Below, one piece after another: positions 4,280 through 42,557 of a stretch of DNA of 64,000 bases. A program made the translations under genes and the position numbers. The DNA is from Xylanibacter rarus (lineage in GTDB: Bacteria; Bacteroidota; Bacteroidia; Bacteroidales; Bacteroidaceae), in NCBI RefSeq assembly GCF_001275135.1, contig NZ_LFQU01000018.1, forward strand, positions 20,546-84,545. Reading direction: 5' to 3'. The notes beneath the pieces are model-generated. The model searched no databases. It worked only from the letters and a program-made list of their open reading frames with translations, and was not told the DNA's origin. Every line of letters begins with the position of its first letter. The first letter of the stretch is position 1.

Positions 4280-4379
4280 CCTGTCCAACTTTGACCGTGT
4301 TTGTCTGCCTAACTTTCGGGTTCAAAGATACTGCATTCTTTTGAAACTCGCAAATATCTGATAATAAATATTTTTGGGT

Positions 4380-9728: not shown

Positions 9729-9801
9729 TGTGAAAAATCAAGAATAAAACAGATTTTTTATGCCCGTAACTTTGTGCTTCATAAAAGATAAGCACAAGGT
9801 T

Positions 9802-10766: not shown

Positions 10767-11126
10767 ATGGAAATAATAACATTCGAGTCCAAAGCCTACA
10801 AGGAACTGGACAACAAAATTACTGCCATTGCCGATTACATATTCAATCATGTAGAAAAGGCAAAACAAAGTGAAGAAGATATGTGGGTGGACAGCTACGA
10901 GGTCTGCACGTTCCTGAAAATAAGCGAAAAGACCCTGCAACGCCTGCGGGTATCGGGGACTATCGCCTATTCCAACATCAGGGGACGTTATTTCTACAAG
11001 GTCAGCGAGATACGCCGGATGCTGGAAGAACGTTTGATTAGGAGCAACAAAGAGAACATCGACAACCTGATAACCAACCACCAACTGTATGCTAAGGAAA
11101 GAGGAAATCTTAGAAAGAACAAGTAA
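10767..11126 (+). CDS. Excisionase-type helix-turn-helix protein
   Basis: The 119-residue protein contains a MerR-like HTH_17 domain: VDSYEVCTFLKISEKTLQRLR, then a wing GRYFYKVSEIRRML. It starts MEIITFESKAYKELD, the usual start of this family in Bacteroidales mobile elements. An earlier in-frame ATG at 10698 lies within the terminator and is rejected. The gene overlaps the primase gene by 38 bases, so they are translated together. It could be a recombination directionality factor or a transfer regulator. Confidence 0.85.
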   Translation: MEIITFESKAYKELDNKITAIADYIFNHVEKAKQSEEDMWVDSYEVCTFLKISEKTLQRLRVSGTIAYSNIRGRYFYKVSEIRRMLEERLIRSNKENIDNLITNHQLYAKERGNLRKNK

Positions 11127-14182: not shown

Positions 14183-16270
14183 CTATTTCTTCGGTTTCGC
14201 TTTCTTTTCGGGAAATGAAAAACCGATATTGAACTGTTCGTCCAGCACAAGCGAAGCATCGAAAGCCTTGCCGTTCTTGCCCTTGAAGCCCTTGATTAGC
14301 CCTGTCTTGCGTTTCGTCGCCAGCTCGACAATCTGCTTGTCGGAAAGCTGCTTGTCGCACTTGTTGCGGAATATGGTAAGCGTGCAGTCCACGTTGGAAC
14401 ACTTCGCCACTTTCGGGTAGAACAGGATGCGCCCGTTATTGCATTTGGGGCAGGAACAAGTTTCGCCATTGGCGATAGATAACTGCACCGATAGCAATTC
14501 CGCCGTGATTTGAGCGGCGTACACCTCAATGCCCTTTCGGAACATGTCGGCATCCATGCTGCCCGCTTCTATCTTGGCAAGGGCGGTTTCCCACATGCCC
14601 GTCATTTCGACATCGGCAATCTTCTTGTCCCTGACAATCCTGTAAACGGCAAGCCCCTTGTCGGTGGGTACAAGGTTCTTCTTCTCACGCACGATGTACT
14701 GGCGGGCGAACAGCGTTTCGATAATCGCCGCACGGGTGGCGGGTGTGCCTATCCCGGCATCTTTCAGGCTGGCTTTCAGTTCGGCATCTTCCAGTTCCTT
14801 TCCGGCGTTCTCCATTGCCGCAAGCAGGCTGCTTTCCGTGTGCAGCGGTTTCGGCTTGGTCTGCTTTTCGAGCAGATCCACGCCGGAGAGTGGCAAATAT
14901 TCTCCCTCTTGGAGTGGCGGCAGGCTGGCGGCTTCTTCATCCCCGCCCGTTTCCTGCTCGCCGAACACGGCACGCCACCCGGCTTCTTTCATCACAGACC
15001 CTTTCACCGTGAAGTCGGTATCTCCCCCTGACAGCAAGGCGGTGGTAACGTCTTTCACGCACTTGCCCGAAAAGGCTTCCAGCATACGCCCGGCTACCAG
15101 CTCGTAAACCGCCCGCTCGTCTTTGGAAAGTTCGCCGGGCAGGTTCTCGGTAATGATTAAGGCGTGGTGGTCGGTCACTTTGCTATCGTTCACGCTGCGG
15201 CGGTTCAGTGCCGCACCGTCCAGCCCGGCGGCATACCCGGCAAAGCGGGGGTATTGCCCCAGCAGGGCGACACGTTCCGGCATTTCATCGAAAACGTCCT
15301 CCGGGATATAGCGGCTTCCAGTTCGGGGGTAGGACATCACTTTCTTTTCATACAGGCTTTGCGCTATGGAAAGCGTCTTGTCAGCCGAGAAGTTCAGCTT
15401 CGTGTTCGCTTCCTTTTGCAGCGTGGTAAGGTCGTACAAAAGCGGCGGTTCTTGACAGGCTTCTTTCCTCTCAACGGATTTAACCACAAGTTGCCCGGCA
15501 TCCTTTACCCGTTGCAGGGCGGCTATGGCTTCGGGCTGCTGTTCCCACTTGGCGGTCGATTGGGCGGTGAAACTTATTTCCCCGCTGGCGGTCGCCGCTT
15601 TGAGTTGCCAAAACTTGGCGGGTACGAAATTCTTGTTCTCCAAATAGCGGCTGCATATCATCACGAGCGTGGGTGTCTGCACCCTGCCCAGTGAGAACAC
15701 CCCCTGCCCGGCGGCAACGCTCAACGCTTGGGTGGCGTTTATCCCTATCAGCCAGTCCGCTTCGCTGCGGGACTTGGCAGAAAGGTAGAGGTTATCGTAA
15801 TATTCGCCCGGCTGCAAGTTATCCAGCCCCTCACGGATTGCCTTGTCGGTAAGGCTGCTTATCCACAGACGCACAAATGGTTTCCGACAGTTCAGGTAAT
15901 GGAAGATATAGCGGAAGATTAGCTCACCCTCACGCCCGGCATCGGTGGCGACAATAATCTTGTCGCACTGGTCGAAAACTTCCTTTATCACTTTCAACTG
16001 TTTCAGCACGCCGGGGTCTGCCTTGTAGCCTTTCTCCGCTTTCACCTGACGGGGAATTAGCTGGAAATCGGGCGGCAGTATGGGCAGGCTCTCCCTGCGG
16101 AAGTTCGCCACGCCGTAGGCTTCCGGCATGGCAAGCTGGATTAAGTGGCCGAACGCCCATGTCACCATATACCCGTTGCCGGAAAGATAACCGTCATTAC
16201 GCCCGGTCGCACCGATGATGCGGGCGATGTCCTTTGCCACGCTGGGCTTCTCTGCTATCAATGCAATCAT
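14183..16270 (-). CDS. topB: DNA topoisomerase III (type IA)
   Basis: The 695-residue protein starts with the Toprim domain (MIALIAEKPSVAKDIA, with DAGREGE at residues 110-116) and continues with the type IA core. The catalytic Tyr is residue 314 in SYPRTGSRYIP. A C-terminal CSCPKCNNGR...CSNVDC metal-binding tail follows. Length is normal. It relaxes or decatenates DNA and is carried by many Bacteroidales conjugative elements, where it may help circularisation or replication. It lies 25 bases after the DUF3945 gene and shares its promoter. Confidence 0.95.
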   Translation of the reverse strand: MIALIAEKPSVAKDIARIIGATGRNDGYLSGNGYMVTWAFGHLIQLAMPEAYGVANFRRESLPILPPDFQLIPRQVKAEKGYKADPGVLKQLKVIKEVFDQCDKIIVATDAGREGELIFRYIFHYLNCRKPFVRLWISSLTDKAIREGLDNLQPGEYYDNLYLSAKSRSEADWLIGINATQALSVAAGQGVFSLGRVQTPTLVMICSRYLENKNFVPAKFWQLKAATASGEISFTAQSTAKWEQQPEAIAALQRVKDAGQLVVKSVERKEACQEPPLLYDLTTLQKEANTKLNFSADKTLSIAQSLYEKKVMSYPRTGSRYIPEDVFDEMPERVALLGQYPRFAGYAAGLDGAALNRRSVNDSKVTDHHALIITENLPGELSKDERAVYELVAGRMLEAFSGKCVKDVTTALLSGGDTDFTVKGSVMKEAGWRAVFGEQETGGDEEAASLPPLQEGEYLPLSGVDLLEKQTKPKPLHTESSLLAAMENAGKELEDAELKASLKDAGIGTPATRAAIIETLFARQYIVREKKNLVPTDKGLAVYRIVRDKKIADVEMTGMWETALAKIEAGSMDADMFRKGIEVYAAQITAELLSVQLSIANGETCSCPKCNNGRILFYPKVAKCSNVDCTLTIFRNKCDKQLSDKQIVELATKRKTGLIKGFKGKNGKAFDASLVLDEQFNIGFSFPEKKAKPKK

Positions 16271-16295: not shown

Positions 16296-17612
16296 CTACA
16301 TTTTCATTCCTCTGGACTTCTTGGGCTTGTCCGCTTTCAGGCTCTTGTCCTGCGCTTTCTCCTGCTTCTCTTTCTGCTTGGCGGTGGGCTTGTCCTGACC
16401 CTGTTTCAGCGGCTCTTTGCCCTGCTTGGTGGCTTCGTTGGTCTTGCCCCCCGAATTGACCGCTACCTGCGTCCGGCTCTCGGCGGCGGGGGTAACGTCT
16501 TTCGGCTGCACCTTGTCGGGGGATTTGCCCTGTGCGCCGGGCTGTACATGACCGTTGAACTCAACGCCCTTGCCGTCCTTTAGCCCGGCTACCTGCTGCT
16601 CTGCGGGCTGCTGTCCCTGCTGCAAGAACTGGACGGCGGCACGGGGCAGGAACTCCAAGCCACGCTCCACCGCACTGACCTGCAAATAGGCACTGCGCTT
16701 CGTGCCGTCCCTGAATTGCAGGTTTTCCATTTTCACCGCTTGCCCGGCTTCAAAGGCGGCTTTCTGCTCCGGGCTGACTTGCACGTTACAGATTGTATCG
16801 GGGCATTTCCACTTGTCAGCCCGCATATACTCCAGTTCGTGCGTGTACCTGTCCCGGCTGACGAACACGGGGATTTGCTCGCCGCTTTTCGGGTCTTTGA
16901 TTTCAGCGATGCCGCCCAAGTTGCCAGTGCCTTGCAAGTTGCCCTGTTCCTGCTTGGTGAACCCGTGTTCATGGAACGGGCGTTGCAACAGTTTCTCGTC
17001 CTGCTGCACGCCGTGCAGCTTGGGGACTACCGTGCCGTCCTTAGCCTGATAGAAAGAGAGCTTGACATCGGTAGGTTTGAGGTAGAAGCCGCCCACCGTC
17101 CCCGAAACGGTGTAGGTGTTGCGGGACTTGTAGCCACGCATCACCCGGTCGAAGTCCTTCGTGTTTTTCAGGGTGTCGGCGGTGATGCCGACTTTTTTCA
17201 GGTTCTCCCAGTCGATTTTTGACGGGTCGAAGCGGTAGCCCTGCTTGAACTCGTGGAAGTCGGGCTTCGGAACTCGAAGCATTTCAGCCCGCTTGTTGCC
17301 CTCCGGTGTAGGGTTGCGGTGGTTGTCCTCGATTGCCTTTGCGTCCCGCTCCGCTTCGGAAGCCTTGACGCTGAACAGTTCCAGCCCGGAAGTGTCCTGA
17401 TACTTGCGGTAGAAGTTGGAAATGAAGTTGCTGAACACATCGCTGTTCTTGTCCACCTGCATGAACTCGCCGCCGTGTGTCGGCGGCACGGTCTGCAAAT
17501 TGCCCTCCTTGTCGATACCCTTAACGGCACTCACCTTGCCCTGCTGTTTATCCAAGACCAGCAGCACGTCTTTTTCCTGCCCCTCTGCGGGCGGGGTCAT
17601 TCTGTTTGCCAT
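16296..17612 (-). CDS. DUF4099/DUF3945 protein of conjugative elements
   Basis: The 438-residue protein is polar and Gln/Lys-rich. Residues 8-110 look like the N-terminal DUF4099 part (VLLVLDKQQGKVSAVKG, FSNFISNFYRKYQDTSG). The middle has DUF3945-type repeats (FYQAKDGTVVPKLHGVQ and LQGTGNLGGIAEIKDPKSGEQIPVFVS), and the end is a low-complexity Lys/Gln tail. Such genes commonly sit next to topB on these elements; the function is unknown, possibly DNA binding. It is the first gene of the leftward operon, with a clear promoter at 17653 and an upstream GGACA array. Confidence 0.8.
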   Translation of the reverse strand: MANRMTPPAEGQEKDVLLVLDKQQGKVSAVKGIDKEGNLQTVPPTHGGEFMQVDKNSDVFSNFISNFYRKYQDTSGLELFSVKASEAERDAKAIEDNHRNPTPEGNKRAEMLRVPKPDFHEFKQGYRFDPSKIDWENLKKVGITADTLKNTKDFDRVMRGYKSRNTYTVSGTVGGFYLKPTDVKLSFYQAKDGTVVPKLHGVQQDEKLLQRPFHEHGFTKQEQGNLQGTGNLGGIAEIKDPKSGEQIPVFVSRDRYTHELEYMRADKWKCPDTICNVQVSPEQKAAFEAGQAVKMENLQFRDGTKRSAYLQVSAVERGLEFLPRAAVQFLQQGQQPAEQQVAGLKDGKGVEFNGHVQPGAQGKSPDKVQPKDVTPAAESRTQVAVNSGGKTNEATKQGKEPLKQGQDKPTAKQKEKQEKAQDKSLKADKPKKSRGMKM

Positions 17613-17652: not shown

Positions 17653-17660
17653 CAAAGGTA
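17653..17660 (-). promoter_or_regulatory. -7 element of the DUF3945-topB operon
   Basis: TACCTTTG on the minus strand matches TAnnTTTG. No TTTG is seen at the -33 position, which suggests the promoter needs an activator. Transcription would start about 5 bases downstream, leaving a 36-base leader containing CCACTAAAATTCCAATTATT. Confidence 0.7.
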
Positions 17661-17698: not shown

Positions 17699-17733
17699 TG
17701 TCCGAATTTGTCCTGCGGTGTCCCGATTTGTCC
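17699..17733 (-). promoter_or_regulatory. GGACA array copy 1 (four pentamers, 10-bp spacing)
   Basis: On the minus strand GGACA occurs four times, each starting 10 bases after the last: GGACAAATCGGGACA, the linker CCGCA, then GGACAAATTCGGACA. The proximal edge is 38 bp upstream of the -7 element at 17653-17660. Related arrays lie at 20332, 26442 and 28114. Confidence 0.75.
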
Positions 17734-17818
17734 GGGTGGGATGAAATTCCGCAACCATTGGTTGCAGAATTGAAAAGGGCATAAAAAAAGAGAGTGAATG
17801 ATTTCACTCTCTTTCGAT

Positions 17819-17925
17819 GAACCCTTTGTGAACCCTTTGGTCGTTTTTTGAAATAGCTAAAACTCAAGTAATTTGCATATTTTGCAAAAGAAAATCATTC
17901 GAGTATGAACCATATGTGAACCCTT
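17819..17925. repeat. 11-bp TGAACCCTTTG direct repeats
   Basis: TGAACCCTTTG and TGAACCCTTTG are adjacent at about 17819-17840. TGAACCATATG and TGAACCCTTTA follow at about 17905-17925. The 11-bp period is one helix turn, which suggests a protein-binding iteron. A similar set (GAGCCATTTG) lies at 20443-20550. A direct hairpin around ACCATTGGT (17750-17767) lies between array and repeats in both places. Confidence 0.5.
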
Positions 17926-18224
17926 TAATGGATTAGCGGGGAACACTGTTTAAGCGTCATCGCGCTTCGTTAGTAATCTGTTATTGCACTCGTTTCAAAT
18001 CCCCGATAGATTGGAGTGACATTTCTATGTAGGGAATAGTTTTTAGAATATGGATGTTATCTATTGCTTCTTTACCACCCAATGCCAATGCCGATACAAG
18101 ACATGGAGATTATAGAATAAAAATAATTCATCTTTCTTATTATCAGTCATTTGAATATTTTCTGTTTTTCTCTATTTTTGCCATTTTCTGTTATTCAGTA
18201 CACTTTGAAATATCATTTTCTTTT

Positions 18225-18400
18225 GTACCTTTGCATCCGCAGAAAACAAAAGAAAATCAACTATTTAGTGTAATTACCCGGTTACGGCACCTAAATCGAG
18301 ATAAAACCTCTAAACAATGGCAATGTTAGAAAATAAAACGAAAGAAAACCCCAAGCTGGAGCAAAATAAGCTCTCGGACGGTAGAATAAGCCTTTACTTA
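18225..18400 (+). pseudogene. Promoter and N-terminus of a decayed ICE integrase
   Basis: TACCTTTG at 18227 is followed by an ORF from ATG 18317 with NPKLEQNKLSDGRISLYLEYY, the start of the arm-binding domain common to Bacteroidales integrases. After LEYY the frame (open to 18547) no longer resembles an integrase, and the catalytic domain is missing. This is the end of a second integrated element that has decayed or been truncated. Other sequence in 17930-18225 shows no feature I can support; the ORF at 18054 is not convincing. Confidence 0.55.
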
Positions 18401-18598
18401 GAGTATTATTTCCTCCTCAAATTATTAAAAGTAATACTGTCAAAAAGAAATACCTTTTATTCTTACTCTTTTCGCCAGTACTTATATCTTGCAGTCAACA
18501 GAAAAAAGTTTAGTACGGTTTGGATATATAGACAAAAAACAGACTAAACTCCAAACATGGAAATTCAGATATTTTTTATACATTTCTCTTATATACAA

Positions 18599-19183
18599 AT
18601 GATAGCCGAATTCAATTCATATATGAGTAACATAGACATAGACTTCTTCAAGGAGTTGTGTCTGAAACATGGAGAGTTACGACATTATAAAAAGAATGAG
18701 TTTATTCTCCATGAAGGTGATGCCTGTTCTTTCTTCGGGTTTATCTTATCAGGCGTAGTCAAATACAGTTGCACCAACCGGACAGAAAACAAGCCGTATA
18801 ATGTCGGTTTTTCCTTTCCAAATGAATTTATAGCCGATTATCCCACTTGCTTATATGGCATGAAATCAGAATTGAATATACAGGCGATAATCCCGTGCGA
18901 GATTTACATCTGTTCTTCTACATTCTTACAGCAAAAATTCAAGGAAAATAATGAAAACCAACGGATAGCCCGTATCGCAGCCGAACAGATGTTTTTCCAA
19001 TCATATTCACGTTATTTGGATTTATTCAGATTCACACCGGAAGAGCGTTACCTCCAACTTTTAAAAAAATGCCCTGCAATCCTTCAAATGGTATCACTAA
19101 AAGAAATAGCATCCTACCTTAAAATTACACCCATACACATGAGCCGAATCAGACGCAAGCAAAGTTTTGACAACAAAAAATAA
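18599..19183 (+). CDS. Crp/Fnr family transcriptional regulator
   Basis: The protein has a cyclic-nucleotide-binding-like beta-barrel (LRHYKKNEFILHEGDACSFFGFILSGVVKYSC, about residues 30-62) and a short C-terminal HTH (LKEIASYLKITPIHMSRIRRKQ). Bacteroidales members of this type have lost cAMP-binding residues and sense unknown signals. Starts at 18557, 18599 and 18623 are in frame; 18623 (MSNIDIDFF) would give the usual length. It belongs to an AT-rich insert within the ICE, next to an integrase remnant. Confidence 0.8.
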   Translation: MIAEFNSYMSNIDIDFFKELCLKHGELRHYKKNEFILHEGDACSFFGFILSGVVKYSCTNRTENKPYNVGFSFPNEFIADYPTCLYGMKSELNIQAIIPCEIYICSSTFLQQKFKENNENQRIARIAAEQMFFQSYSRYLDLFRFTPEERYLQLLKKCPAILQMVSLKEIASYLKITPIHMSRIRRKQSFDNKK

Positions 19184-19255
19184 ACATAGGTTTAGAAATT
19201 TACATTCATAACAATATTCCAAGAGTATCTTAATCTGCCAAAGAATTCTTCTTTT

Positions 19256-19263
19256 TATCTTTG
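19256..19263 (+). promoter_or_regulatory. -7 element of the lipoprotein gene
   Basis: TATCTTTG matches TAnnTTTG, 75 bases upstream of ATG 19338; a second TATCTTTG-like word follows at 19267. Confidence 0.55.
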
Positions 19264-19337
19264 TCTTATCTTTGGTTGGTTCAACGAAGAGACAAAATAA
19301 AGATTGAATGAGTTAAACAAGAGATTAAAAAAAGAAT

Positions 19338-19748
19338 ATGAAAACAAAAGAAATTCTTGGAATACTTATGCTATTCCTCTGTACATTCAGCTTTATAAGC
19401 TGCGACGATGATAATGAACAGACAAATGAATTAACCCCCGAAGCACTTTATCAGACTTCATGGCGTGGAACAGGGCATTGTGAGGCTTGGACAGTACAAA
19501 ATATGGGGGTCGGTATGCAATTTGTAGATACTCGGAAAGGGAAAGTAAATTGGGAAGGTTACGATGAAATTGATATTACTTATACAATAGAAGGGAAATA
19601 TATCACATTTAATAGCAATGCTTTATATTTGGGTGGAGCCCCTTGGATTATCAAAAGCTATACCCAAAAACATATAACCATTATACAGAATGAAATTAGT
19701 CCAGATAAAGAGAAAGTAGCTACAATTGAATTAGAGAAAATAGATTAA
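19338..19748 (+). CDS. Small lipoprotein, lipocalin-like beta protein
   Basis: The 136-residue protein starts with a lipoprotein signal (MKTKEILGILMLFLCTFSFISC, Cys at 22) followed by the acidic DDDNEQ stretch that in Bacteroidales favours surface export. The mature part alternates hydrophobic and polar residues (YQTSWRGTGHCEAW, GKVNWEGYDEIDITYTIEGKYITF) and should fold as a small beta-barrel, like many lipocalin-type lipoproteins. Ligand unknown. It may be controlled by the Crp-type gene upstream. Confidence 0.75.
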   Translation: MKTKEILGILMLFLCTFSFISCDDDNEQTNELTPEALYQTSWRGTGHCEAWTVQNMGVGMQFVDTRKGKVNWEGYDEIDITYTIEGKYITFNSNALYLGGAPWIIKSYTQKHITIIQNEISPDKEKVATIELEKID

Positions 19749-20030
19749 ACTGAATCATGGGAACATTAAGTTGCATAAATGTATGCTACAACAGAACAAT
19801 GAGAACCGTGAGATTTGCAAATTGAGCAAAGAAAGTCATAAATACCTTGTAAATAAAGGAAAAAATGCAGATTCATCTAATATTCCTTTATGTGCTATTA
19901 TCGGGCTGGTCTATGGGCTGAAACACAAGGAAAAGAGATTCACCTTGTTCTTTTGTATAGGATTGGTTATTGGGTTAGGATGAGCAATTTATATGCTACT
20001 GCTAATAAGGTCAATGTAAATCAAAGGAAT

Positions 20031-20243
20031 ATGAAACTGAAATATATATTGAATGCTATACTATTTGTTTTGGCATTATCTTTTTTGTCTATGTGTATAT
20101 TTAAGACTACAGAGTTAAGTTTAAAATGTATGCAATTTGCTGTATCTATCTCTTGTATAGGAGCAATGTTTTCTACAAAAAGATATAGATACATATTTGC
20201 ATCTATTGCTTTAATCATTATAGGAATATCTTTTTCACTTTAA
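20031..20243 (+). CDS. Small two- or three-TM membrane protein
   Basis: From ATG 20031 (AAAGGAAT just upstream) the ORF gives 70 residues made almost wholly of hydrophobic segments (MKLKYILNAILFVLALSFL, LKCMQFAVSISCIGAMF, YIFASIALIIIGISFSL). Longer in-frame starts at 19890 and 19980 give a polar, unlikely N-terminus. The family is not recognised. A short ORF at 19771-19983 directly upstream has no clear support. Confidence 0.45.
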   Translation: MKLKYILNAILFVLALSFLSMCIFKTTELSLKCMQFAVSISCIGAMFSTKRYRYIFASIALIIIGISFSL

Positions 20244-20299
20244 ATGTCCATAATAACGATAATGATTTGATTATTGAATGGTATAATAATAGTCCAGTC

Positions 20300-20366
20300 T
20301 ACAGATAGCGACTAAAAACGGGGGCAAGGGATGCCCGAATTTGTCCTGCGGAGCTTGAAATTATCC
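20300..20366 (-). promoter_or_regulatory. GGACA array copy 2 with decayed promoter
   Basis: On the minus strand GGACAAATTCGGGCA (20332-20346) and GGATAATTTCAAGCT (20352-20366) flank CCGCA, the same layout as at 17699. The -7 position reads TATCTGTA (20300-20307), so the promoter no longer fits TAnnTTTG. TAGCGACTAAA is also shared with 17655. This looks like a duplicated and decayed copy of the topB-operon control region. Confidence 0.6.
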
Positions 20367-20442
20367 GGGTGCGGTAAATCTCCAACTGTTGGTTGGAGAT
20401 TTAAAACGGGTACAGACCGAAGTTAATCGCTTGCTTTAAACG

Positions 20443-20550
20443 AGCCATTTGTGAGCCATTTGTATATATTGTTTTCGGCTTATAATCAACAGTTTTACAA
20501 AAATCGCATTATACTTGTGAGCCATTTGTGAAGCGTTTATGAAGCGTATG
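20443..20550. repeat. 11-bp GAGCCATTTGT direct repeats
   Basis: GAGCCATTTGTGAGCCATTT at about 20443 and TGTGAGCCATTTGTGAAGCG near 20517 repeat with an 11-base period, followed by TATGAAGCG. The position relative to array copy 2 mirrors the TGAACCCTTTG set after array copy 1. Confidence 0.5.
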
Positions 20551-20656
20551 GCAAGCCTTTGATTGAGTTTCCGTTATTCTCCTATTATCAGGTGACACGA
20601 CAAAAAGAAAACATCTTCGGCAAAATCTTTGTTATGTTTTTGCAGGTGATTACATA

Positions 20657-20664
20657 ATATACTA
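20657..20664 (+). promoter_or_regulatory. -7 element of the AbiE pair
   Basis: TATCTTTG matches TAnnTTTG, 31 bases upstream of ATG 20695; it rules out the longer in-frame start at 20668. Confidence 0.7.
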
Positions 20665-20694
20665 TCTTTGCATATAGAAACAAAGGACATAAAT

Positions 20695-21396
20695 ATGGCT
20701 TCATTCAGAAAAGAGATACTTGGGCAGATTGAACGGATAGATACCGGGCGTATATTCACGTTCCGGGATTTATCGTTTGAAACGGAAAAGACCGCCAATG
20801 TTGCGGTGCTACTTTCCGAACAGAGCCGCAAAGGGGTACTGGTACGGGTTGAAAAGGGGGCGTACTACCGTCCCAAGAAATCAGTGCTGGGGCTGGGAAA
20901 GCTGCCTGTCTATCAGGATGAACAGTTCCGCTACCTGACTGAAAAACTGAACGGCTATATCACGGGGGCTTACATCTATAACAAAATGGGGCTGACCGAA
21001 CAGGTAGCCACAACCATAACGATAGCCACTCCTAACCCGGTTCGCCGTTTCCGTTTCAAGAACTTGGATATAGAGTGCGTGAAAGCCTACTGCATGGTCT
21101 ATCCGGATGAAAGCCTTGTCCCGTACTTGCGGCTGCTCGATGCGATAAAGGATATGAAGCGCATACCCGGAACAACCGGGCAGGACATCTACAACCGGGT
21201 CAAAAGCCAATATTTCAACGGGTACAGCCTGCCGGAACTGGAAAAAATCGTATCTTTGGCGAAAAGTTACCCGCCACGTGTCAGAAAGGTGGTGGCGGAT
21301 ATACTGGGCGACATCAGACAAACCGTATTGCAAACGGAAATGGCAAAGACCATTCTTCCCACGACACGGTTCAACTTGGATTATAAAACAGCATAG
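20695..21396 (+). CDS. DUF6088/AbiEi-type antitoxin
   Basis: The 233-residue protein has an N-terminal winged-helix segment (FRKEILGQIERIDTGRIFTFRDL, then LLSEQSRKGVLVRVEKGAYYRPKK) and a C-terminal domain that matches DUF6088-type antitoxins. The C-terminal part begins at the TEKLNGYITGAYIYNKMGL block. It lies 9 bases before the AbiEii-type toxin gene. In this type IV system the antitoxin represses its own operon through the wHTH and counters the toxin without stable binding. It probably helps keep the ICE in the host or blocks phage. Confidence 0.85.
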   Translation: MASFRKEILGQIERIDTGRIFTFRDLSFETEKTANVAVLLSEQSRKGVLVRVEKGAYYRPKKSVLGLGKLPVYQDEQFRYLTEKLNGYITGAYIYNKMGLTEQVATTITIATPNPVRRFRFKNLDIECVKAYCMVYPDESLVPYLRLLDAIKDMKRIPGTTGQDIYNRVKSQYFNGYSLPELEKIVSLAKSYPPRVRKVVADILGDIRQTVLQTEMAKTILPTTRFNLDYKTA

Positions 21397-21405
21397 GACA
21401 GAAAT

Positions 21406-22422
21406 ATGAATTTACATTCGGACAAGGAAGCGTTCAAGGAAATCATCGCACTGGCGGCTGACCATTTCGGCTACGAGCAGTCGCACGTGGAAAAGGATTA
21501 CTGGGTATCGAAGATACTGCGGGATATTTCCATGTCCGAATATGCGGATAAGACCTACTTCAAAGGCGGAACTTCACTTTCCAAAGCCTACGGGCTGATA
21601 GAACGTTTCTCGGAAGATTTGGACTTGTTCGTGTTCACGGGTGATAAAGGTGCGTCCAAGCAGGCAGAAAAGACATTGAACAAGAAACTTTCCAAATACA
21701 TAGCCGAACTCAATAGTGACATATACAAGGAAGATTTGTCGGAAACGGGCGGTAATTACCGTAAACTGTATTTCTCGTATGACAATGTATTTCAAGGCGT
21801 GGGACTGAAAGAACATTTGGAAGTAGAGATAAAATCCTGTGACCTGCCGGACAAAAAACTGATGTTCTACCCGGCGGACAAGCGGGTTATCAAACCGATT
21901 GTGACCGCCTTTCTTGAAAGCATCGGGCAAGAGGAACTGATAAGCACCTACGGGCTGGAAAGTTTTGAAACGCAGTGTATCAACCCCCGAAAGACTATCT
22001 GCGACAAGGTTTCAAGGCTGGTAAAGCTGTCTTACAATGAGGATGCAGCCGCACTGTTGGCAAAGCATATCCGTGACGTTTACGACTTGTCGGCACTCTA
22101 CCACAATCAGGAATATAACGATTACCTACATTCGGAAGATTTCTTGGATGCCATGTACCGGGTGACGATAGAGGACGGACTAAATAAAAACTCCCGTTCG
22201 CACTTGTCGCTGGCTGATGCACCGATATTCAAGGATGCCGAAGCGGTCATGGCGTTACCCGAAGTGGCTACGGCGTACACTACCGATTTGAAGAAACTGA
22301 CTTTCGACAAAAGCAAGATGCCGCCGATAGGCAAGGCTGTGGAAGCATTGAAGAACCTGCACGAAATATTAGTGCGTTTTGAAGCCTACCGCACCAAAAA
22401 GCAAAATGAAGAACAACCGTAA
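21406..22422 (+). CDS. AbiEii/AbiGii nucleotidyltransferase toxin
   Basis: The 338-residue protein carries the AbiEii signature: GGTSLSKAYGLIERFSEDLDLFVF, where GGTSLSK is the nucleotide-binding loop and SEDLDL the metal-binding acidic pair (residues 53-78). HVEKDYWVSKIL precedes it, and the C-terminal HIRDVYDLSALY motif is typical. The enzyme transfers nucleotides to tRNA or another RNA and stops growth unless the antitoxin is present. All key motifs are intact. The genes converge with mobC 44 bases downstream. Confidence 0.9.
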   Translation: MNLHSDKEAFKEIIALAADHFGYEQSHVEKDYWVSKILRDISMSEYADKTYFKGGTSLSKAYGLIERFSEDLDLFVFTGDKGASKQAEKTLNKKLSKYIAELNSDIYKEDLSETGGNYRKLYFSYDNVFQGVGLKEHLEVEIKSCDLPDKKLMFYPADKRVIKPIVTAFLESIGQEELISTYGLESFETQCINPRKTICDKVSRLVKLSYNEDAAALLAKHIRDVYDLSALYHNQEYNDYLHSEDFLDAMYRVTIEDGLNKNSRSHLSLADAPIFKDAEAVMALPEVATAYTTDLKKLTFDKSKMPPIGKAVEALKNLHEILVRFEAYRTKKQNEEQP

Positions 22423-22465
22423 AGCTACATCGGCTGTTCTTCACTCCATACATTATTATATATAG

Positions 22466-24475
22466 CTATTCTTCCTCCTTAATCAAGTGGCATAACTCCG
22501 GGTCGTTCTTAATCCGGGTTATCTCGTCCTCGACTATCTGCCTGACTTCCTGACGGATGCGGTCATAGTTGGCTTGTATCTCCTCCTGCATCCGGTCGTT
22601 GCCGTCCTTGTCGGTGAAGTCGATAATCTGCGGCAACTTCACGTAATGGGCGGTTTCCCGCTTCACCTTTTCGTTGTCCACCACGATTTCGCAGTGGAAA
22701 ATCTTCTGCTCTATCCGTTCATCGAAGTTGTCCGCCACAGCACCCACGAACATACCTTGCGTGAGGTTGGATATTTTGCTGGCGGGTATCAGGCTGTCCA
22801 TTTGGGTGCTTATCGAGGTGGATTTTTCCCGTTGGTTTATCGTCATGCTCTGCCGTTTCTGCAACACCTTTCCGAAACGCTCGGAAAGGATTTTCGCCGT
22901 TTCACCGACTACTTGACCGCTGAACACGTTACCCACAGTATTTTGGATAACCCGGCTTTCCTTGTCCCCGTAATCACGGGTAAGCTGGCTGTAATCCTGA
23001 AAGCCTAACAGAACCGCAACCTTGTTGCTTCGGGCGGTGGCAATCAAATTATCCAACCCCCGAAAATATATAGTTGGTAATTCATCTATTATCACCGAAC
23101 TTTTAAGCTGACCTTTCTTGTTTATCAGCTTCACGATACGGGAATTATATAATCCCAGTGCTGCCGAGTAGATATTTTGGCGGTCAGGATTGTTGCCGAC
23201 AACCAGTATTTTAGGCTCTTTCGGGTTGTTGATGTCAAGTGAAAAATCATCGCCCGTCATTACCCAGTAAAGGGCGGGTGAAATCATCCTTGAAAGCGGG
23301 ATTTTTGCACTGGCAATCTGCCCCTGCAACTGTTCAACTGCCGAACTTTCCCAAGCGTCCACGAACGGGGAAAGGTAATTTTCCAGTTCGGGATAACTGC
23401 GCAAAATCGTGAATACATCAGCGTATTTCTTGTTCAACAGTTCTATGGCATGGGGAAACGTGCAATACCTGCCGCCTTGATAGATGCGCAAATACCAAAT
23501 AATGGCTGCAAGCAGGATAATCGGGCTTTCCACGAAGAAGTCGCCCTGCTTGCTTATCCAGCTTCGATTGAGGTTAAGCATAATCGTGTAGCTGGCTTCA
23601 TAAGCATCCGCAATGTCCGACATGAAGCTGGCGTTTATAGGGTTACATCGGTGGCTCTTGCGTGGGTCGTCAAAGTTGATAACGTAAAATTTCGGCTTGA
23701 CCTTGTAGCCGTCCAAGTGGTTAAGCAAATGATTGTAAGCGATTTCCGAAAGGTCAGGAAACTTATAATCATACAGGTAGAGCGCAAAACCTTTCTCGAT
23801 TTGCTGTTTTATGTAATTATTTACTACTGCGTATGACTTCCCGCTGCCCGGCGTTCCTAACACGATGCTCGCACGAAAAACGTTTACAACGTTAATATAG
23901 CCATTGTTCCACTTCTTCTTATAGTAGAACCGGGTAGGCAGATTTACAGAATACTCGTTCTCGATAAGCCTTGTTTCCTGCTGGAAACTTTCGTTCTCGG
24001 TATTAAAGACATCATCCATGAGGTTGTTTTTCAATAACCGGGACATCCACGTACCCGCCATGAGCATACAGATATAGCCCGCCGACAGCGTGGCGATATA
24101 AAACACAGTGTCCGCCGTATGTGGCAGCGGAAGTTCCAGCAGCCACCAGTTCAGGAAAAACAACACGACACCCGCCGCAAGGCTGCAATGTATCTTCGCC
24201 CACGTTATCTTTTCCTCTTTCACGCCCTTAGTGCCGATACACGACAGGGCGAGGAACACCACCGAAAATAGTTTTGTCCATAAGATAGACGAGAACAGCC
24301 CGGTGGTGCGCTGGAAGTTCCACAGTATCTTGTCTATCACCTCAAACGTCACTCCCCATTCTTTCAGGGTGGAGTAACAGAACCAGTACACGTTTATTCC
24401 CACGAATAGAATACTGACAGCCCGCATAAAGTCCATGACCCTTGCAAGCCCTCTCAAATCATCTTCCTGTTGCAT
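22466..24475 (-). CDS. mobC: Type IV coupling protein MobC (VirD4/TraG class)
   Basis: The 669-residue protein has four N-terminal membrane segments (about residues 13-30, 58-80, 95-115 and 122-140) and a large RecA-like ATPase domain. Walker A is GTPGSGKS at 207-214, and VIIDELPTIYFRGLDNLIATAR is the Walker B region. The C-terminal half ends in an acidic tail. It links the relaxase-DNA complex to the Tra channel and drives DNA export at the inner membrane. It is last in a leftward mobA-mobB-mobC operon. Confidence 0.92.
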   Translation of the reverse strand: MQQEDDLRGLARVMDFMRAVSILFVGINVYWFCYSTLKEWGVTFEVIDKILWNFQRTTGLFSSILWTKLFSVVFLALSCIGTKGVKEEKITWAKIHCSLAAGVVLFFLNWWLLELPLPHTADTVFYIATLSAGYICMLMAGTWMSRLLKNNLMDDVFNTENESFQQETRLIENEYSVNLPTRFYYKKKWNNGYINVVNVFRASIVLGTPGSGKSYAVVNNYIKQQIEKGFALYLYDYKFPDLSEIAYNHLLNHLDGYKVKPKFYVINFDDPRKSHRCNPINASFMSDIADAYEASYTIMLNLNRSWISKQGDFFVESPIILLAAIIWYLRIYQGGRYCTFPHAIELLNKKYADVFTILRSYPELENYLSPFVDAWESSAVEQLQGQIASAKIPLSRMISPALYWVMTGDDFSLDINNPKEPKILVVGNNPDRQNIYSAALGLYNSRIVKLINKKGQLKSSVIIDELPTIYFRGLDNLIATARSNKVAVLLGFQDYSQLTRDYGDKESRVIQNTVGNVFSGQVVGETAKILSERFGKVLQKRQSMTINQREKSTSISTQMDSLIPASKISNLTQGMFVGAVADNFDERIEQKIFHCEIVVDNEKVKRETAHYVKLPQIIDFTDKDGNDRMQEEIQANYDRIRQEVRQIVEDEITRIKNDPELCHLIKEEE

Positions 24476-24493
24476 GATTGTAATGTTTTTAAG

Positions 24494-25762
24494 TTAGTTG
24501 ATGCGCCTTGTGCGCTTCTTTTTCTTCTTTCTCTTTTGGCGGTCGGTGTCCTGCGGCTCGTCACCGCCTGATGCACCGCCGCCCAGCAAACCGCCGAAAG
24601 CACCCAGCACGGAAGCCATGCCCGAAACGATGTCGGCTTTCGGCGTGAAGCCCGGCTGTTCCTGATGCGTGGGCTGGTCTTGCTGCGGTGCTGCCACTTC
24701 GGACTGGTGTATCTTTCCGGTTTCGCCCGAAAAACGTTCGTTGAACACGTTCGCCGAATACTCCTTACCCAAGCGTGAACCGTTCAGCACCACCCGGCTG
24801 TCGTGGTCGATGAACGTAACGCCATAGATGCGCCCGTTGTCGTTCTGACGGAATACCACATCAATGCCCTGCTTCTTTAGCTGTCGTTCCAGTTCCTTGC
24901 GGCTGCGGGCGGTCTGCATGGCAGTGGCTACAATCTTCCGGGTGCGCTCTTTCAGTTTCCCGTTCTTAATTGCTTCGCCCGATTTCTCCATTCTGCGCTG
25001 CACCGCTTCATAACCTACCGACTTGCCGATGCGGGAAGCCTTTACCGGGTTGCCCACCTTTTCGCCCTTGTCGTTCATGGCGGAATAGACAATGCCCTGA
25101 TAGGGCTTGCCGTTTATCTCGCCTTTGACTTCCTCGGCGCACACGTTGTAAGCGGCAAGCAAAGCCTTGTACTCCCCGAACGACTGGAAGCGGTAGCCAT
25201 AGCAAGCCGCTTTCACGGTGTTGCCGATTTGGTGCTTCACGTCCCCGGCGGCATAGTCCACCTTTTTAAGTTCGGGGCGTTCGGCACGTTCCTTTCGTTC
25301 TGCCGGGTGCAGGTTGTATTTCTGCTCCAGTTCACGGGTGATTTGCTTGCTGCGCCGATGCTCGAACTTGTCATTCAGCGGCTTGCCGTTCTCGTCCACC
25401 CGCAACCCCACGATGTGGATATGGTGGCGGTCGATGTCGGTATGCTTGTACACCAGATAAGGCTGGTCGCCATAGCCCAACTTCCGCATATACTCTTTGG
25501 CGATGTCGGAAAGCTGCCGGTCGGTCAGCACGTCTTCCGGGTGCGGGTTTATGGAAATATGAAGTATCGGCTTCTTGGTGGATAGCTGGACGGGCATCTG
25601 CATTTCAAAGCTGCGCATACACTCGCCGATAGAGAAATTCCCGTCCTCGCCCAACAGCATCCGGTTGGAGAAAAGCACCTTTGCTTCCCCGCTGTCCACC
25701 TTGTTTTGGTTGTATGCCAGTGCGCCGAACATATTGCCGCCCGTGCTTATTTTGGCAACCAT
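24494..25762 (-). CDS. mobB: Relaxase MobB (MobP-type mobilisation nuclease)
   Basis: The 422-residue protein begins MVAKISTGGNMFGALAYNQNKV. The HUH-type motif is PYLVYKHTDIDRHHIHIVGLRVDENG (about residues 94-120), with the His cluster DRHHIHI that binds the metal. The catalytic Tyr is probably among the N-terminal tyrosines. The end is a basic KKKKKRTRR tail. It nicks oriT and carries the strand to the recipient. ATG 25762 is preferred over 25774. Its start overlaps the end of mobA by 16 bases. Confidence 0.9.
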   Translation of the reverse strand: MVAKISTGGNMFGALAYNQNKVDSGEAKVLFSNRMLLGEDGNFSIGECMRSFEMQMPVQLSTKKPILHISINPHPEDVLTDRQLSDIAKEYMRKLGYGDQPYLVYKHTDIDRHHIHIVGLRVDENGKPLNDKFEHRRSKQITRELEQKYNLHPAERKERAERPELKKVDYAAGDVKHQIGNTVKAACYGYRFQSFGEYKALLAAYNVCAEEVKGEINGKPYQGIVYSAMNDKGEKVGNPVKASRIGKSVGYEAVQRRMEKSGEAIKNGKLKERTRKIVATAMQTARSRKELERQLKKQGIDVVFRQNDNGRIYGVTFIDHDSRVVLNGSRLGKEYSANVFNERFSGETGKIHQSEVAAPQQDQPTHQEQPGFTPKADIVSGMASVLGAFGGLLGGGASGGDEPQDTDRQKRKKKKKRTRRIN

Positions 25763-26169
25763 AGTTCCCTGCACTCGTTTGTCAGGTCGATAACCTGACG
25801 GTTCAACACAGCCAGTTCGGTGGTCGCTTTCTCCAGTTTATAGAGAAAAGCCAGTGCCTTTTTCTCCGAAAAGTTACTATTCAGAGCCTTTACCACTTGG
25901 TTGTAATTGACCGCAACCGCCCGGAACTGGGCATAAAATTCGGTCAGCCGGGCGCAATATTCTACTGCCGATTTGTCCACTTTCACCACCCGGAACGGCT
26001 CGCCGAACAGCCGGGCGGCGATGAAACGGGACTTGCTCGTGACGCCCGACTGCTCCCATTGCGAGAGGAAGCGGGCATTCTCCCGGTCGTTCAGGTAAAG
26101 GACATGGCGATGCTTCGCCGGGTCTGCGAGGGCGGGGCGACCGCCCTTGTTGGTTCTTCTTGTTTCCAT
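25747..26169 (-). CDS. mobA: MobA, relaxosome DNA-binding protein
   Basis: The 140-residue protein begins METRRTNKGGRPALADPAKHR, a ribbon-helix-helix-like basic start seen in MobA/MobC accessory proteins. A C-terminal helical part (AVNYNQVVKALNSNF, LYKLEKATTELAVLNRQVIDL) is typical of mobilisation accessory proteins. It should bind oriT and recruit the relaxase. The gene starts the leftward mob operon, about 220 bases downstream of a weak -7 element (TTACTTTG, 26394-26401, minus strand). Confidence 0.88.
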   Translation of the reverse strand: METRRTNKGGRPALADPAKHRHVLYLNDRENARFLSQWEQSGVTSKSRFIAARLFGEPFRVVKVDKSAVEYCARLTEFYAQFRAVAVNYNQVVKALNSNFSEKKALAFLYKLEKATTELAVLNRQVIDLTNECRELWLPK

Positions 26170-26441
26170 GCTTCTTTGGATTAAAAAATTACGACTTCGG
26201 AGTGATTTTTACCCCCGACAGGGGCAAGGCGTTTTCAGGCACGGAAAACGGTTCTATGTGCCATAGAACACACCTTGCTATTTTCTGACGAAAATCGAAA
26301 TCCGTCACGGACGGATTGGGGTTAGCGTGGAACGGTAAGCCCAGCCATTCACCAGCCCTGTTTTACACCTGCGCCCCCTGCGGTTCGTTACTCCGCTGCA
26401 AAGTAACGGTGATTTATAATGCTGTAAAATAGGTGGTTGGT

Positions 26442-26511
26442 GGACAAAACGGGACAGCGCAGGACAAATCGGGACAAGGTTTTCAGGGGACGTTTTTTCT
26501 CCCTTTTTTTG
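26442..26511 (+). promoter_or_regulatory. GGACA array copy 3 and putative tra operon promoter
   Basis: Four GGACA words start at 26442, 26452, 26462 and 26472 (GGACAAAACGGGACA, linker GCGCA, then GGACAAATCGGGACA). Exactly 27 bases separate the array from TTTTTTTG (26504-26511), a weak -7 element. The layout suggests an activator-dependent start site for the rightward tra operon, between the divergent mob and tra operons. Confidence 0.65.
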
Positions 26512-26517
26512 CATCGG

Positions 26518-26707
26518 ATTTCAATATTGAAAGCAAGATTGAAAGAAATATTCCAATCAGGAAAGAATGATTGAAAGCAGGATTTCAATAAAACATGATT
26601 GCAGGATTTCAATATTTCAAGAAAGAATGAAAGCAGGAAAACAAGATTGAAATAAAACAGTCTTTCAATATTTCAAGATTGCAATATGGAAAGAATGATT
26701 GAAAGCA
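26518..26707. repeat. AT-rich GAAAG/TTTCAA repeat cluster, candidate oriT or partition site
   Basis: GGAAAGAATGATTGAAAGCA occurs twice without change (26560-26579 and 26688-26707) and TTTCAATATTTCAAGA twice (26607-26622 and 26663-26678). Many partial copies of GATTGAAAG and its complement fill the interval. Such a dense repeat block between mobA and a ParA-like traA gene is where a transfer origin or centromere-like site is expected. Which of the two it is cannot be read from sequence. The rest of 26170-26441 shows only the weak mob promoter. Confidence 0.55.
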
Positions 26708-26745
26708 ATAAACAAATCTATCAACCAATAATGAACGGAAGCAAT

Positions 26746-27513
26746 ATGGAAAACGAGAAAACACCCCTTTATGTCGCCTTTTCCACACAAAAGGGCGGGG
26801 TCGGCAAAACCACCTTTACCGTGCTGGCGGCGAGTTACCTATACTACCTCAAAGGCTACAATGTGGCGGTGGTCGATTGCGACTACCCCCAGCACTCCAT
26901 TGCCGGGATGCGCAAGCGGGATGCCGAGCAGGTCGGGGCGGATGAAGATTACAAGCGCATGGCGTATGAACAGTTCACCCGGCTGGGGAAGAAAGCCTAC
27001 CCGGTACTGTGCAGTTCGCCCGAAAAGGCGATTGCAACGGCTGACGGATATATAGCCGCCGGACACGTGCCGGATATAGTGTTTTTCGACCTGCCCGGCA
27101 CGGTGAACAGCGAGGGCGTGATAAACTCCCTTGCGGGCATGGACTACATTTTCACCCCCATTTCAGCCGACAAGGTGGTGCTGGAAAGCAGCCTGTCGTT
27201 CGCAATGGCTATCCAAAAGCTATTAGTGAAGAATGAAGCCTGCCGACTTGCAGGGCTGTACCTCTTTTGGAACATGGTGGACGGTAGGGAGAAAACAGAC
27301 CTTTACACCGCCTACGACAAGACCATTAAGGAACTGGAACTGCCGCTGATGAAAACCTTTATCCCCGATACCAAACGCTACAAAAAGGAACTGGTGGCGG
27401 ATAAAAAGGCGGTGTTCCGCTCCACGCTCTTTCCCGCCAGCCGCCCGTTGGTAAGGGGAAGCAACTTGGAAGAACTGATAACCGAAATAGTGTACTACAT
27501 CAAATTAAAATGA
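26746..27513 (+). CDS. traA: TraA, ParA family ATPase
   Basis: The 255-residue protein has the deviant Walker A box KGGVGKTT at residues 16-23, DYPQHS at the Walker A' position and a DIVFFDLPGTVNSEGV segment as Walker B. It is the first gene of the tra operon. ParA-type TraA proteins are standard in CTnDOT-like elements, and the precise role is not settled. Longer in-frame starts at 26686 and 26731 exist, but 26686 lies inside a 20-bp repeat, so the ATG before ENEKTPLY is preferred. Confidence 0.88.
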   Translation: MENEKTPLYVAFSTQKGGVGKTTFTVLAASYLYYLKGYNVAVVDCDYPQHSIAGMRKRDAEQVGADEDYKRMAYEQFTRLGKKAYPVLCSSPEKAIATADGYIAAGHVPDIVFFDLPGTVNSEGVINSLAGMDYIFTPISADKVVLESSLSFAMAIQKLLVKNEACRLAGLYLFWNMVDGREKTDLYTAYDKTIKELELPLMKTFIPDTKRYKKELVADKKAVFRSTLFPASRPLVRGSNLEELITEIVYYIKLK

Positions 27514-27514
27514 T

Positions 27515-27943
27515 ATGGCAAAGCAAAGCGGCGGGATGCCGAAGATAGACGAGGATTTTATGCGGGAACTTATCTCGCAGGGTGTACCCGCCAAGCGGGA
27601 GAGCCAGCCGGATGATGAACCGCAGCCCGGCAGCGAAACGGAAACCGCCCACGAGGGACGGCAGGCTGAAACAGTGCAAGTAGAGAAACCGACACCCCGC
27701 AAGCGCAAGGGCGGTTCGGGCGACTACCGGGAAACCTACTTTCAGAAAGTGGAACTGGCAGACCGACAGCCCTTGTACGTGAGCCGAACCACGCATGAGA
27801 AGCTGATGCGTATCGTGACGGTGATAGGCGGGCGAAAGGTGACGGTAAGCAGCTACGTGGAAAACATTCTGCTGCGCCACTTCGAGCAGTACCAAGACGA
27901 GATAAACACCCTGTACGAAAGCCACTTCCAAAAGCCTGTCTGA
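27515..27943 (+). CDS. traB: DUF3408 protein (TraB-like)
   Basis: The 142-residue protein has an unstructured, Glu/Gln/Pro-rich N-terminal half and a conserved C-terminal half (YRETYFQKVELADRQPLYVSRTTHEKLMRIVTVIGGRKVTVSSYVENILLRHFEQY). This is the DUF3408 signature, a ribbon-helix-helix-like DNA-binding domain. It follows traA with 1 base between stop and start. A ParA-type ATPase followed by a DNA-binding partner resembles a ParA/ParB-like pair. Confidence 0.85.
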   Translation: MAKQSGGMPKIDEDFMRELISQGVPAKRESQPDDEPQPGSETETAHEGRQAETVQVEKPTPRKRKGGSGDYRETYFQKVELADRQPLYVSRTTHEKLMRIVTVIGGRKVTVSSYVENILLRHFEQYQDEINTLYESHFQKPV

Positions 27944-27945
27944 CT

Positions 27946-28575
27946 ATGGTAATCTATTGCATACTTACCGGGCTTTTGGTGTACTACATCGCCCTGTGGC
28001 TGTGGTATCGCTACACGGACAGCCGGACATCACCGGGCAAAACGGATGATGCGCCGCTTCCACGAAACGGGGTTTCAGGCTACACGCTGATAGGTGAAAG
28101 CCGATACAAGAGCGGACAATTTCAGACAGCGCAGGACAAATCGGGACACCTCCCGCAAGCGGCTGAAAATGATACTATTTTTGCGCCGCAGGCTGACGGA
28201 CTGCCGGAAGAAACGCCCGGTTACGAGAATGACGAACCCGACTACGAGGACGAGGAAATAGCCGGGTACATGGACGGTGACGATGATACCGGGCGGGCTA
28301 CGGGCGTGAGCTTTGACGAACTGGGCGAAGCGGTACGCACGGCGAACGCCGACAACCCCACCGAAACGGAACAGCGGCAAGCCGCCGGGACACTGGCAAG
28401 GATTGAGGGGACGAACCTCTACGATGCGGTGGTGGAGAACATCAACGGCGGGCTGGCAAAGGTGGCGGAACTGCTGGGACGCAACGAAGCGGAACTGGCT
28501 GCGGCTGCTGTCCCTGCCGAAGCTGGCAATAAAAGCAAGGAACACGAAGCGTTCGACATGAACGATTTCCTATAA
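27946..28575 (+). CDS. traD: TraD, membrane-anchored protein with embedded regulatory array
   Basis: The 209-residue protein has one N-terminal membrane segment (VIYCILTGLLVYYIALWLW) and an acidic, probably disordered middle (NDEPDYEDEEIAGYMDGDDD). A helical C-terminal part contains LARIEGTNLYDAVVENINGGLAKVAELLGRNE. By position and length it matches TraD of Bacteroidales elements; the function is not established. Codons for QFQTAQDKSGH overlap GGACA array copy 4, so coding and regulatory constraint coincide there. Confidence 0.75.
   Translation: MVIYCILTGLLVYYIALWLWYRYTDSRTSPGKTDDAPLPRNGVSGYTLIGESRYKSGQFQTAQDKSGHLPQAAENDTIFAPQADGLPEETPGYENDEPDYEDEEIAGYMDGDDDTGRATGVSFDELGEAVRTANADNPTETEQRQAAGTLARIEGTNLYDAVVENINGGLAKVAELLGRNEAELAAAAVPAEAGNKSKEHEAFDMNDFL
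28114..28183 (+). promoter_or_regulatory. GGACA array copy 4 and internal promoter in traD
   Basis: GGACAATTTCAGACA, GCGCA and GGACAAATCGGGACA (28114-28148) repeat the 10-base spacing. TATTTTTG (28176-28183) is an exact TAnnTTTG match, 27 bases downstream, the same distance as at 26442. It could give a second transcript for traE onward. Confidence 0.55.
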
Positions 28576-42199: not shown

Positions 42200-42298
42200 A
42201 ACTCAAAATTTTTAGTTGCAAAATTAGTTTTTACCTCTCGTTTTCGAGTTATGCAGACTATGGACTAATATAGTCATTATCAGGTCATTTATGGACAA

Positions 42299-42350
42299 TT
42301 CGTTACCGTTTTTGTCCGGCAGGGAATAGGTAACGATTTAGTAACGAAAC
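42299..42350. repeat. Integrase arm-type sites, outer right end
   Basis: ATTCGTTACCG, then ATAGGTAACGATTTAGTAACG and GAAAC carry the same words as the left end at 4246 in a related order. Confidence 0.5.
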
Positions 42351-42401
42351 TTTGTCTTTTACCGTACTTTTGAAGTCTTGGAAGCAGGACTTTCGGGCAA
42401 T

Positions 42402-42433: not shown

Positions 42434-42471
42434 TTTGTCCGTTTGCTGACCATTTCTGTCCAGCACGTTCA

Positions 42472-42494
42472 GCGGAGAGAGAGGGATTCGAACC
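42472..42494. other. attR: right border within tRNA-Ser
   Basis: GCGGAGAGAGAGGG (42472-42485) repeats the left-border sequence at 4171. It covers the 3' acceptor strand and part of the T-arm of tRNA-Ser. Confidence 0.7.
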
Positions 42495-42557
42495 CCCGGT
42501 GCCTCTCAGCACGACGGTTTTCAAGACCGTTGTAATCGACCACTCTACCATCTCTCC
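42473..42557 (-). tRNA. tRNA-Ser(UGA)
   Basis: On the minus strand GGAGAGA pairs with TCTCTCC, the anticodon loop is CTTGAAA with anticodon TGA, and a long variable arm (GTGCTGAGAGGCAC) is present, as in tRNA-Ser. The 3' CCA is not encoded. The T-loop is GGTTCGAAT. The gene remains intact after the ICE insertion at its 3' end. Confidence 0.95.

Follow-up and report, generated by a model that had tools for sequence, protein, structure and literature searches.

Helically phased word arrays at promoters and ends of an integrative and conjugative element of Xylanibacter rarus and a candidate excisionase-type binder

In a stretch of Xylanibacter rarus DNA of 64,000 nucleotides (contig NZ_LFQU01000018.1; hereafter the window), the short word GGACA recurs at exact steps of 10 base pairs (bp) in front of several conjugation genes, which raises the question of what these arrays do and which protein may read them. 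The genes belong to an integrative and conjugative element (ICE) that is inserted at a serine transfer RNA gene (tRNA-Ser) and appears to extend from ~4171 to ~42481; the gene names tra, mob, orf3 and exc follow CTnDOT usage. As a first-pass annotation of this DNA had suggested, a helically phased array stands before the DUF3945 gene and topB, before traA and, inside traC, before the genes from traE on, and probably regulates them. We consider the array almost certain to be a real, deeply conserved regulatory element. A more far-reaching reading, with a probability of roughly 0.48, is that Bacteroidales ICEs use a single phased code for excision and transfer: a filament of four excisionase protomers would serve as excision factor at the ends and would also, from upstream, activate tra, orf3-exc and a hidden promoter in traC, with a face rule of 27 or 38 bp to RNA polymerase.

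Phased arrays and promoter boxes

Array D (17699..17733, minus strand) and array I (26442..26476, plus strand) each consist of four GGACA words at 10-bp steps with 0 mismatches. The former lies upstream of a separate unit (17612-14183, minus) composed of the gene for a DUF4099/DUF3945 protein (orf3-like, 16296..17612) and the topoisomerase gene topB (exc-like, 14183..16270), the latter in the intergenic region where the mob genes (24494-26169, minus; among them a MobA-like gene with PF19514 MobC_2 at 25747..26169, divergent to traA) diverge from the tra operon (26746 onward, plus). Array C (28114..28148, plus) has four words at the same steps with 1 mismatch (AGACA) and lies inside the coding region of traC (27946..28575, plus; named from its position and without a Pfam family). 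The -7 consensus of Bacteroides-type promoters is TAnnTTTG, and boxes resembling it follow all three arrays: TACCTTTG 38 bp past array D (17653..17660, minus), the imperfect TTTTTTTG, which is TTTATTTG in many relatives, 27 bp past array I (26504..26511, plus), and TATTTTTG inside traC, 27 bp past array C (28176..28183, plus). Boxes at 27, 27 and 38 bp had been noted in the first-pass annotation; they are present, and the relation of 27 to 38 was found again in relatives. The same annotation had listed one 35-base design at four loci. This stands for 17699, 26442 and 28114 (exact or with 1 mismatch), whereas the fourth (20332..20366, minus) has 6 mismatches and a single exact GGACA left; it aligns with the whole promoter region at 17699, so that both array D and the promoter region around it are represented here by decayed copies, and four equal arrays are ruled out.

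A de novo scan of the 64 kb for 5-bp words made up of three or more letters, each repeated four times with at least 18 of 20 matches at periods 7-14, returned at period 10 only arrays D, I and C; period 9 gave 3 hits, periods 12 and 13 one each, and the remaining periods none. Assembly-wide, GGACA-N5-GGACA-N5-GGACA had 4 overlapping hits, which fall in arrays D and I only, and the backwards control had 0.

Relatives were compared in 40 genome regions and 80 loci from Bacteroides, Parabacteroides, Phocaeicola, Dysgonomonas, Paludibacter and others. A region was removed if it was too short or more than 95% identical to one retained earlier, hence n=83 for mob-tra in gap counts and n=86 in period counts, and the regions counted are related sequences, not independent trials. 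The exact three-word GGACA pattern occurred in 20 of 301 family genomes (our own included), against 1 for its backwards control. All 11 genomes with a TraA at least 79% identical are among these 20; in the other 9 the pattern stands in other contexts and is therefore not diagnostic alone, and tblastn at one locus for each of these 9 gave a weak primase-like match in L019 alone. With TraA divergence GGACA gives way to AGCCA, TGCCA or CGCCA, and a single array often combines different words; what remains constant is the core nG(A/C)CA, together with the 10-bp step, the strand and the position. This word class was defined from clade A plus L074 and L075 and then applied to all sequences, those included.

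With an array counted as present from a score of 14 out of 16 upward, four-word arrays of period 10 were found in 58/86 mob-tra regions (upstream of traA), 30/35 regions upstream of DUF3945-topB and 31/48 traC starts. In the same regions, periods 7-9 and 11-14 yielded 0-4, the antisense strand yielded 0 arrays at the periods counted there (9-11), and 20 dinucleotide shuffles yielded means of 0.4 (mob-tra), 0 (DUF3945) and 0 (traC), with at most 2. Looking for the pattern in the upstream regions of related ICEs had been proposed from the outset, with the understanding that loss of its spacing and place there would speak for chance or coding constraint; the relatives keep both.

The -7 box also stands at a fixed distance from the array, as would be expected of a Bacteroides-type promoter. 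In the mob-tra regions an array scoring at least 14 lies exactly 27 bp before T[AT]nnTTTG in 42 and exactly 38 bp before it in 10; the traA box of relatives is mostly TTTATTTG, one letter off TAnnTTTG. Gaps of 17 (22 regions), 37 (15) and 47 (1) mostly reflect these same arrays displaced by one word, and no further gap between 15 and 60 exceeds 2. Upstream of DUF3945 (n=35), scores of at least 13 were obtained at gap 38 in 27 regions, with TACCTTTG or TACTTTTA as the box, and at gap 28 in 29, mostly as a one-word shift, and in traC (n=48) such scores were obtained at gap 27 in 29 sequences, with shifts at 17 (29) and 37 (24). Since 27 and 38 differ by 11 bp, approximately one helical turn, the array would be on the same side of the promoter in both cases.

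The position of array C inside a gene allows the DNA to be compared with the protein it encodes. Among 31 distinct traC sequences (only identical strings were removed, and related sequences are pooled), its codon phase in the traC frame is identical in 31/31, and most of the amino-acid changes at the array (Thr→Pro, Asp→Ala, Gly→Arg/Ser) preserve the word class. The words also force the choice among synonymous codons: glycine is encoded within the array by GGA in 43/45 cases (17% in the rest of traC), threonine by ACA in 21/22 (21%), proline by CCA in 7/7 (16%), arginine by AGA in 10/10 (9%) and aspartate by GAC in 28/28 (49%). Array and 27-bp gap are retained in lineages whose TraC is 21-33% identical, which suggests that the DNA itself is under selection, and array C with its box is presumed to be an internal promoter for traE onward.

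Some further observations were made on the words and their surroundings. By inspection, the mob-tra regions L115 and L122 have two of four words left with the 27-bp gap unchanged, apparently a 20-bp loss, and linkers 1 and 3 are alike in many arrays, which suggests a 20-bp unit. One genome of many contigs (G084, locus L022) contains 50 GGACA triple patterns, an unexplained repeat family of which several listed places form inverted pairs ~55 bp apart on several contigs; tblastn beside L022 found no ICE gene. In L018 (1501-1565, genome G193) seven GGACA words stand in 10-bp phase, and no ICE gene was detected in this 3-kb locus. In the window, a gene pair at 20668-22422, between array D and the mob genes, presumably resembles AbiEi/AbiEii.

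Word arrays at the ends of the element

Arrays of a like word class, absent from the first-pass annotation, were found in this analysis at both ends of the ICE, where T was also allowed at word position 3 in counts for the attachment (att) regions. At the left end, AGACA, GGTCA and GGACA follow each other at steps of 10 and 10 (4282..4306, minus). At the right end, which holds the gene of the tyrosine integrase (int, 40970..42199, minus) and, at the attachment site, tRNA-Ser (42472..42557, minus), GGACA, GGTCA and GGACA stand beside the att core at steps of 10 and 11 (42436..42461, minus), and GGACT, AGTCA, GGTCA and GGACA lie upstream of int at steps of 10, 11 and 10 (42262..42297, plus). Relatives likewise have two arrays between the core and int, one of three words by the core and another, upstream of int, that runs on the other strand. 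In 16 int-upstream regions (integrase at least 56% identical), perfect three-word chains were found at spacing (10,11) in 12 and (11,10) in 11, and at any other spacing of 7-14 in at most 1. The left-end array was present in 4/4 ends read, i.e., the window (10/10) and 3/3 relatives (11/10; two of them alike). A like word class at att and at promoters is what would be expected of the sites of a winged helix-turn-helix (wHTH) recombination directionality factor.

The att region of the window also contains a dyad (42301-42335), CGTTACC..GGTAACG, shared with L221-L223 and L228; it appears as GTACCCCC..GGGGGTAC in L224, L231 and L236 and as CGTCTACC..GGTAGACG in L229, the palindrome being kept as the letters change. 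A terminator-like hairpin with a T run (42401-42436) adjoins the near-core att array and is found in most relatives printed.

Which protein may read the arrays

One word code at att sites and at the promoters for transfer and excision points to the excisionase-like HTH_17 protein of the ICE (10767..11126, plus), encoded next to rteC in the left part of the element. It carries PF12728 and matches phrog_66, 'excisionase and transcriptional regulator', with E 4e-8, so that by sequence family an excisionase-type helix-turn-helix is present on the element. Homologues were found in 27/27 genomes searched first (in G071 the match covers only 51 residues) and, at E ≤ 1e-8, in 15/15 further array-bearing genomes, where the helix LKIS[ED][KR]TLQR[LF]R is kept in the homologues read, even at an overall identity of only ~44%; the one exception is L291, a partial match. 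Solved-structure sequences searched with HTH_17 and TraB as queries gave no meaningful match, NCBIfam had none for either, and a scan of viral contigs with HTH_17 returned 1 locus. We regard the HTH_17 excisionase-type protein as the best single explanation for the binder, with odds slightly in its favor, and consider it likely that the arrays are activator arrays. The sequence comparisons show phase, strand, place, conservation, codon constraint and a like word class at att; which protein binds, that it activates instead of represses, and that the promoters are active is what we infer.

In the mechanism we propose, the HTH_17 protein (Xis2c/Xis2d-like and presumably a wHTH recombination directionality factor) would bind the arrays cooperatively, one protomer taking each nG(A/C)CA word and the protomers stacking head-to-tail, one per helical turn, along a single face of the helix. 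The excisive complex would be assembled on the arrays at the ICE ends, whose steps are mostly 10/11. The promoter arrays (10/10/10), 27 or 38 bp upstream of the -7 box, would activate the DUF3945-topB (orf3-exc) operon and in the same way the traA operon, and array C would activate the internal traC promoter, boosting the genes from traE on. With one protein and one DNA code at ends and promoters, excision and transfer may be switched on together. By analogy, the array would work like the site of a wHTH excisionase filament, a membership that we claim as far as the features tested reach.

Several known systems resemble parts of this proposal. A 2013 study by Keeton is reported to have identified Ptra of CTnDOT as a promoter that Xis2c and Xis2d both bind and activate. 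CTnDOT shares with the window ICE the HTH_17 excisionase-like genes, DUF3945 (orf3), topB (exc), RteC and the mob/tra layout; unlike CTnDOT, the window ICE has a phased nG(A/C)CA array with a gap of 27/38 bp and presumed promoters within traC and, separately, for orf3-exc. In locus L276, two HTH_17 genes stand together with DUF3945 and topB on one strand, in the CTnDOT order xis2c-xis2d-orf3-exc, and in L271 one HTH_17 gene stands with DUF3945 and topB; in neither was there an array scoring at least 15 on either strand, or at least 14 on the gene strand from HTH_17 to DUF3945 (best 12 and 13). The array is seen where DUF3945-topB is separate from xis, a pattern that we count in favor of the HTH_17 protein. 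Phage lambda Xis also uses head-to-tail wHTH protomers, as proposed here, but its element holds three of them. Open-licence literature searches found no description of such a phased array.

In published accounts, CTnDOT excisionases are described as moonlighting as transcription factors (PMC9956884, citing Hopp 2015). RdfS, the wHTH excisionase of ICEMlSym-R7A, binds attP and promoters; its protomers line up head-to-tail, four of them forming a tetramer on 40 bp of attP in which each takes 10 bp, and it is reported to show no consensus motif (PMC11963761). Four words in 35 bp fit this tetramer closely, a likeness in described geometry. Streptomyces BldC likewise places head-to-tail wHTH protomers one DNA turn apart (PMC11963761) and, unlike the proposed binder, is not a mobile-element factor.

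A number of observations weigh against the HTH_17 proposal. The arrays have a recurring word consensus, unlike the RdfS site as reported, and the att steps (10/11) differ from the promoter steps (10/10). The HTH_17 helix is changed in the most distant ICEs with promoter arrays (VSKRTMQRMR in L213, VSTRTLQRMR in L214), and these genomes contain many HTH_17 paralogues, so that presence alone is weak evidence. As many as 27 of the 83 mob-tra regions have no array of at least 14 at any gap from 15 to 60, 8 of these 27 being without a -7-like box in reach, and 3 of the 35 DUF3945 upstream regions (L144, L146, L158) fit best at gap 28 instead of 38. The att regions read that look, from their core, to be of CTnDOT type (integrase 44-45% identical) have no perfect three-word chain; L252 has a weaker form, AGCCA-ATCCA-AGCCA-AGACG at 10/11/10. 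Finally, Xis2d reportedly binds a dyad between mob and tra, not direct repeats, according to work of Hopp in 2015, and such a dyad does not obviously match a head-to-tail array.

For the att arrays, the strongest rival is the integrase arm domain. The words would then be arm-type sites, with Int acting at att and on the promoter arrays and tying transfer expression to the Int level, which we consider unlikely. Word arrays do lie on both att arms, beside int and at the far end, and Int carries an arm-binding domain (Arm-DNA-bind_5). As the arm-type sites of lambda Int are direct repeats ~10 bp apart with a GTCA core in the att arms, the att arrays may be Int sites, a further point against the HTH_17 protein. 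Such sites are not known as promoter arrays, however, Int is not known as an activator of tra promoters, and the promoter arrays persist in CTnDOT-type ICEs, of which those read for att have integrases only 44-45% identical and no perfect three-word chain there. Activation of CTnDOT transfer genes is ascribed to excisionases (in outline in PMC9956884).

Somewhat less likely again is binding by TraB (27515..27943, plus), a DUF3408 and probably ribbon-helix-helix (RHH) protein, together with TraA (26746..27513, plus), a ParA-like ATPase, in a system for partition, relaxosome recruitment (VirC1/VirC2-like) or autoregulation. Array I is directly upstream of traA-traB, the C-terminus of TraB reads RHH-like, by inspection only, and RHH centromere proteins typically use direct repeats of ~10-11 bp; ParA and RHH systems (type Ib partition, VirC1/VirC2) share with the window a ParA-like ATPase by an RHH-like protein and short direct repeats. 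Unlike in those systems, the window arrays follow promoters and att sites, with a polarity that follows the promoters, and a like word class is also found beside the integrase of L237, on a stretch (L271, L274) where no TraB was detected in 39 kb. PHROGs had no match for TraB. Because the word class also occurs at att, and because the presumed DNA-contacting strand of TraB varies (YVSR, YITR, TTITR, YISK and others), more than the HTH_17 helix and over constant words, the DUF3408/ParA-type partner put forward in the first-pass annotation is not favored.

It is improbable that RteC (9760..10662, plus) binds the arrays and directly activates the three promoters. An RteC homologue lies beside HTH_17 in 17/20 loci read, which counts against the HTH_17 protein insofar as co-occurrence cannot separate the two. 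In CTnDOT the sites of RteC are inverted repeats upstream of xis2c, and in the window none of the full-score arrays is near xis; in G202, RteC is ~40% identical and the promoter words are the same, although HTH_17 there is also only 65% identical. An AraC-like binder, another suggestion of the first reading, is unlikely as well: a homologue (E ≤ 1e-15) was found in 7/23 genomes, in two of them only 31% identical, and an AraC operator was rejected with no homologue at this threshold in seven array-bearing genomes, most of them draft (G202, G232, G041, G036, G071, G002 and G009). A functionless origin through chance, coding constraint or common ancestry, for which one may cite that members of one clade are not independent and that the bare three-word pattern stands in other contexts in 9 of 20 positive genomes, has a negligible probability, as it is contradicted by the period, strand, shuffle and codon controls and by a 27-bp gap in traC that is retained down to 21% TraC identity.

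Meaning for Bacteroidales elements

ICEs of this type carry genes through gut Bacteroidales. With a readable code for the switch that controls them, sequence alone would suffice to locate regulated promoters and excision sites. Array C predicts an unannotated promoter inside traC, and the idea of the excisionase as transcription activator becomes testable by point changes in the words. If the binder is confirmed, the arrays would also provide a clear consensus for the target of a wHTH excisionase, in contrast to RdfS, for which none is reported.

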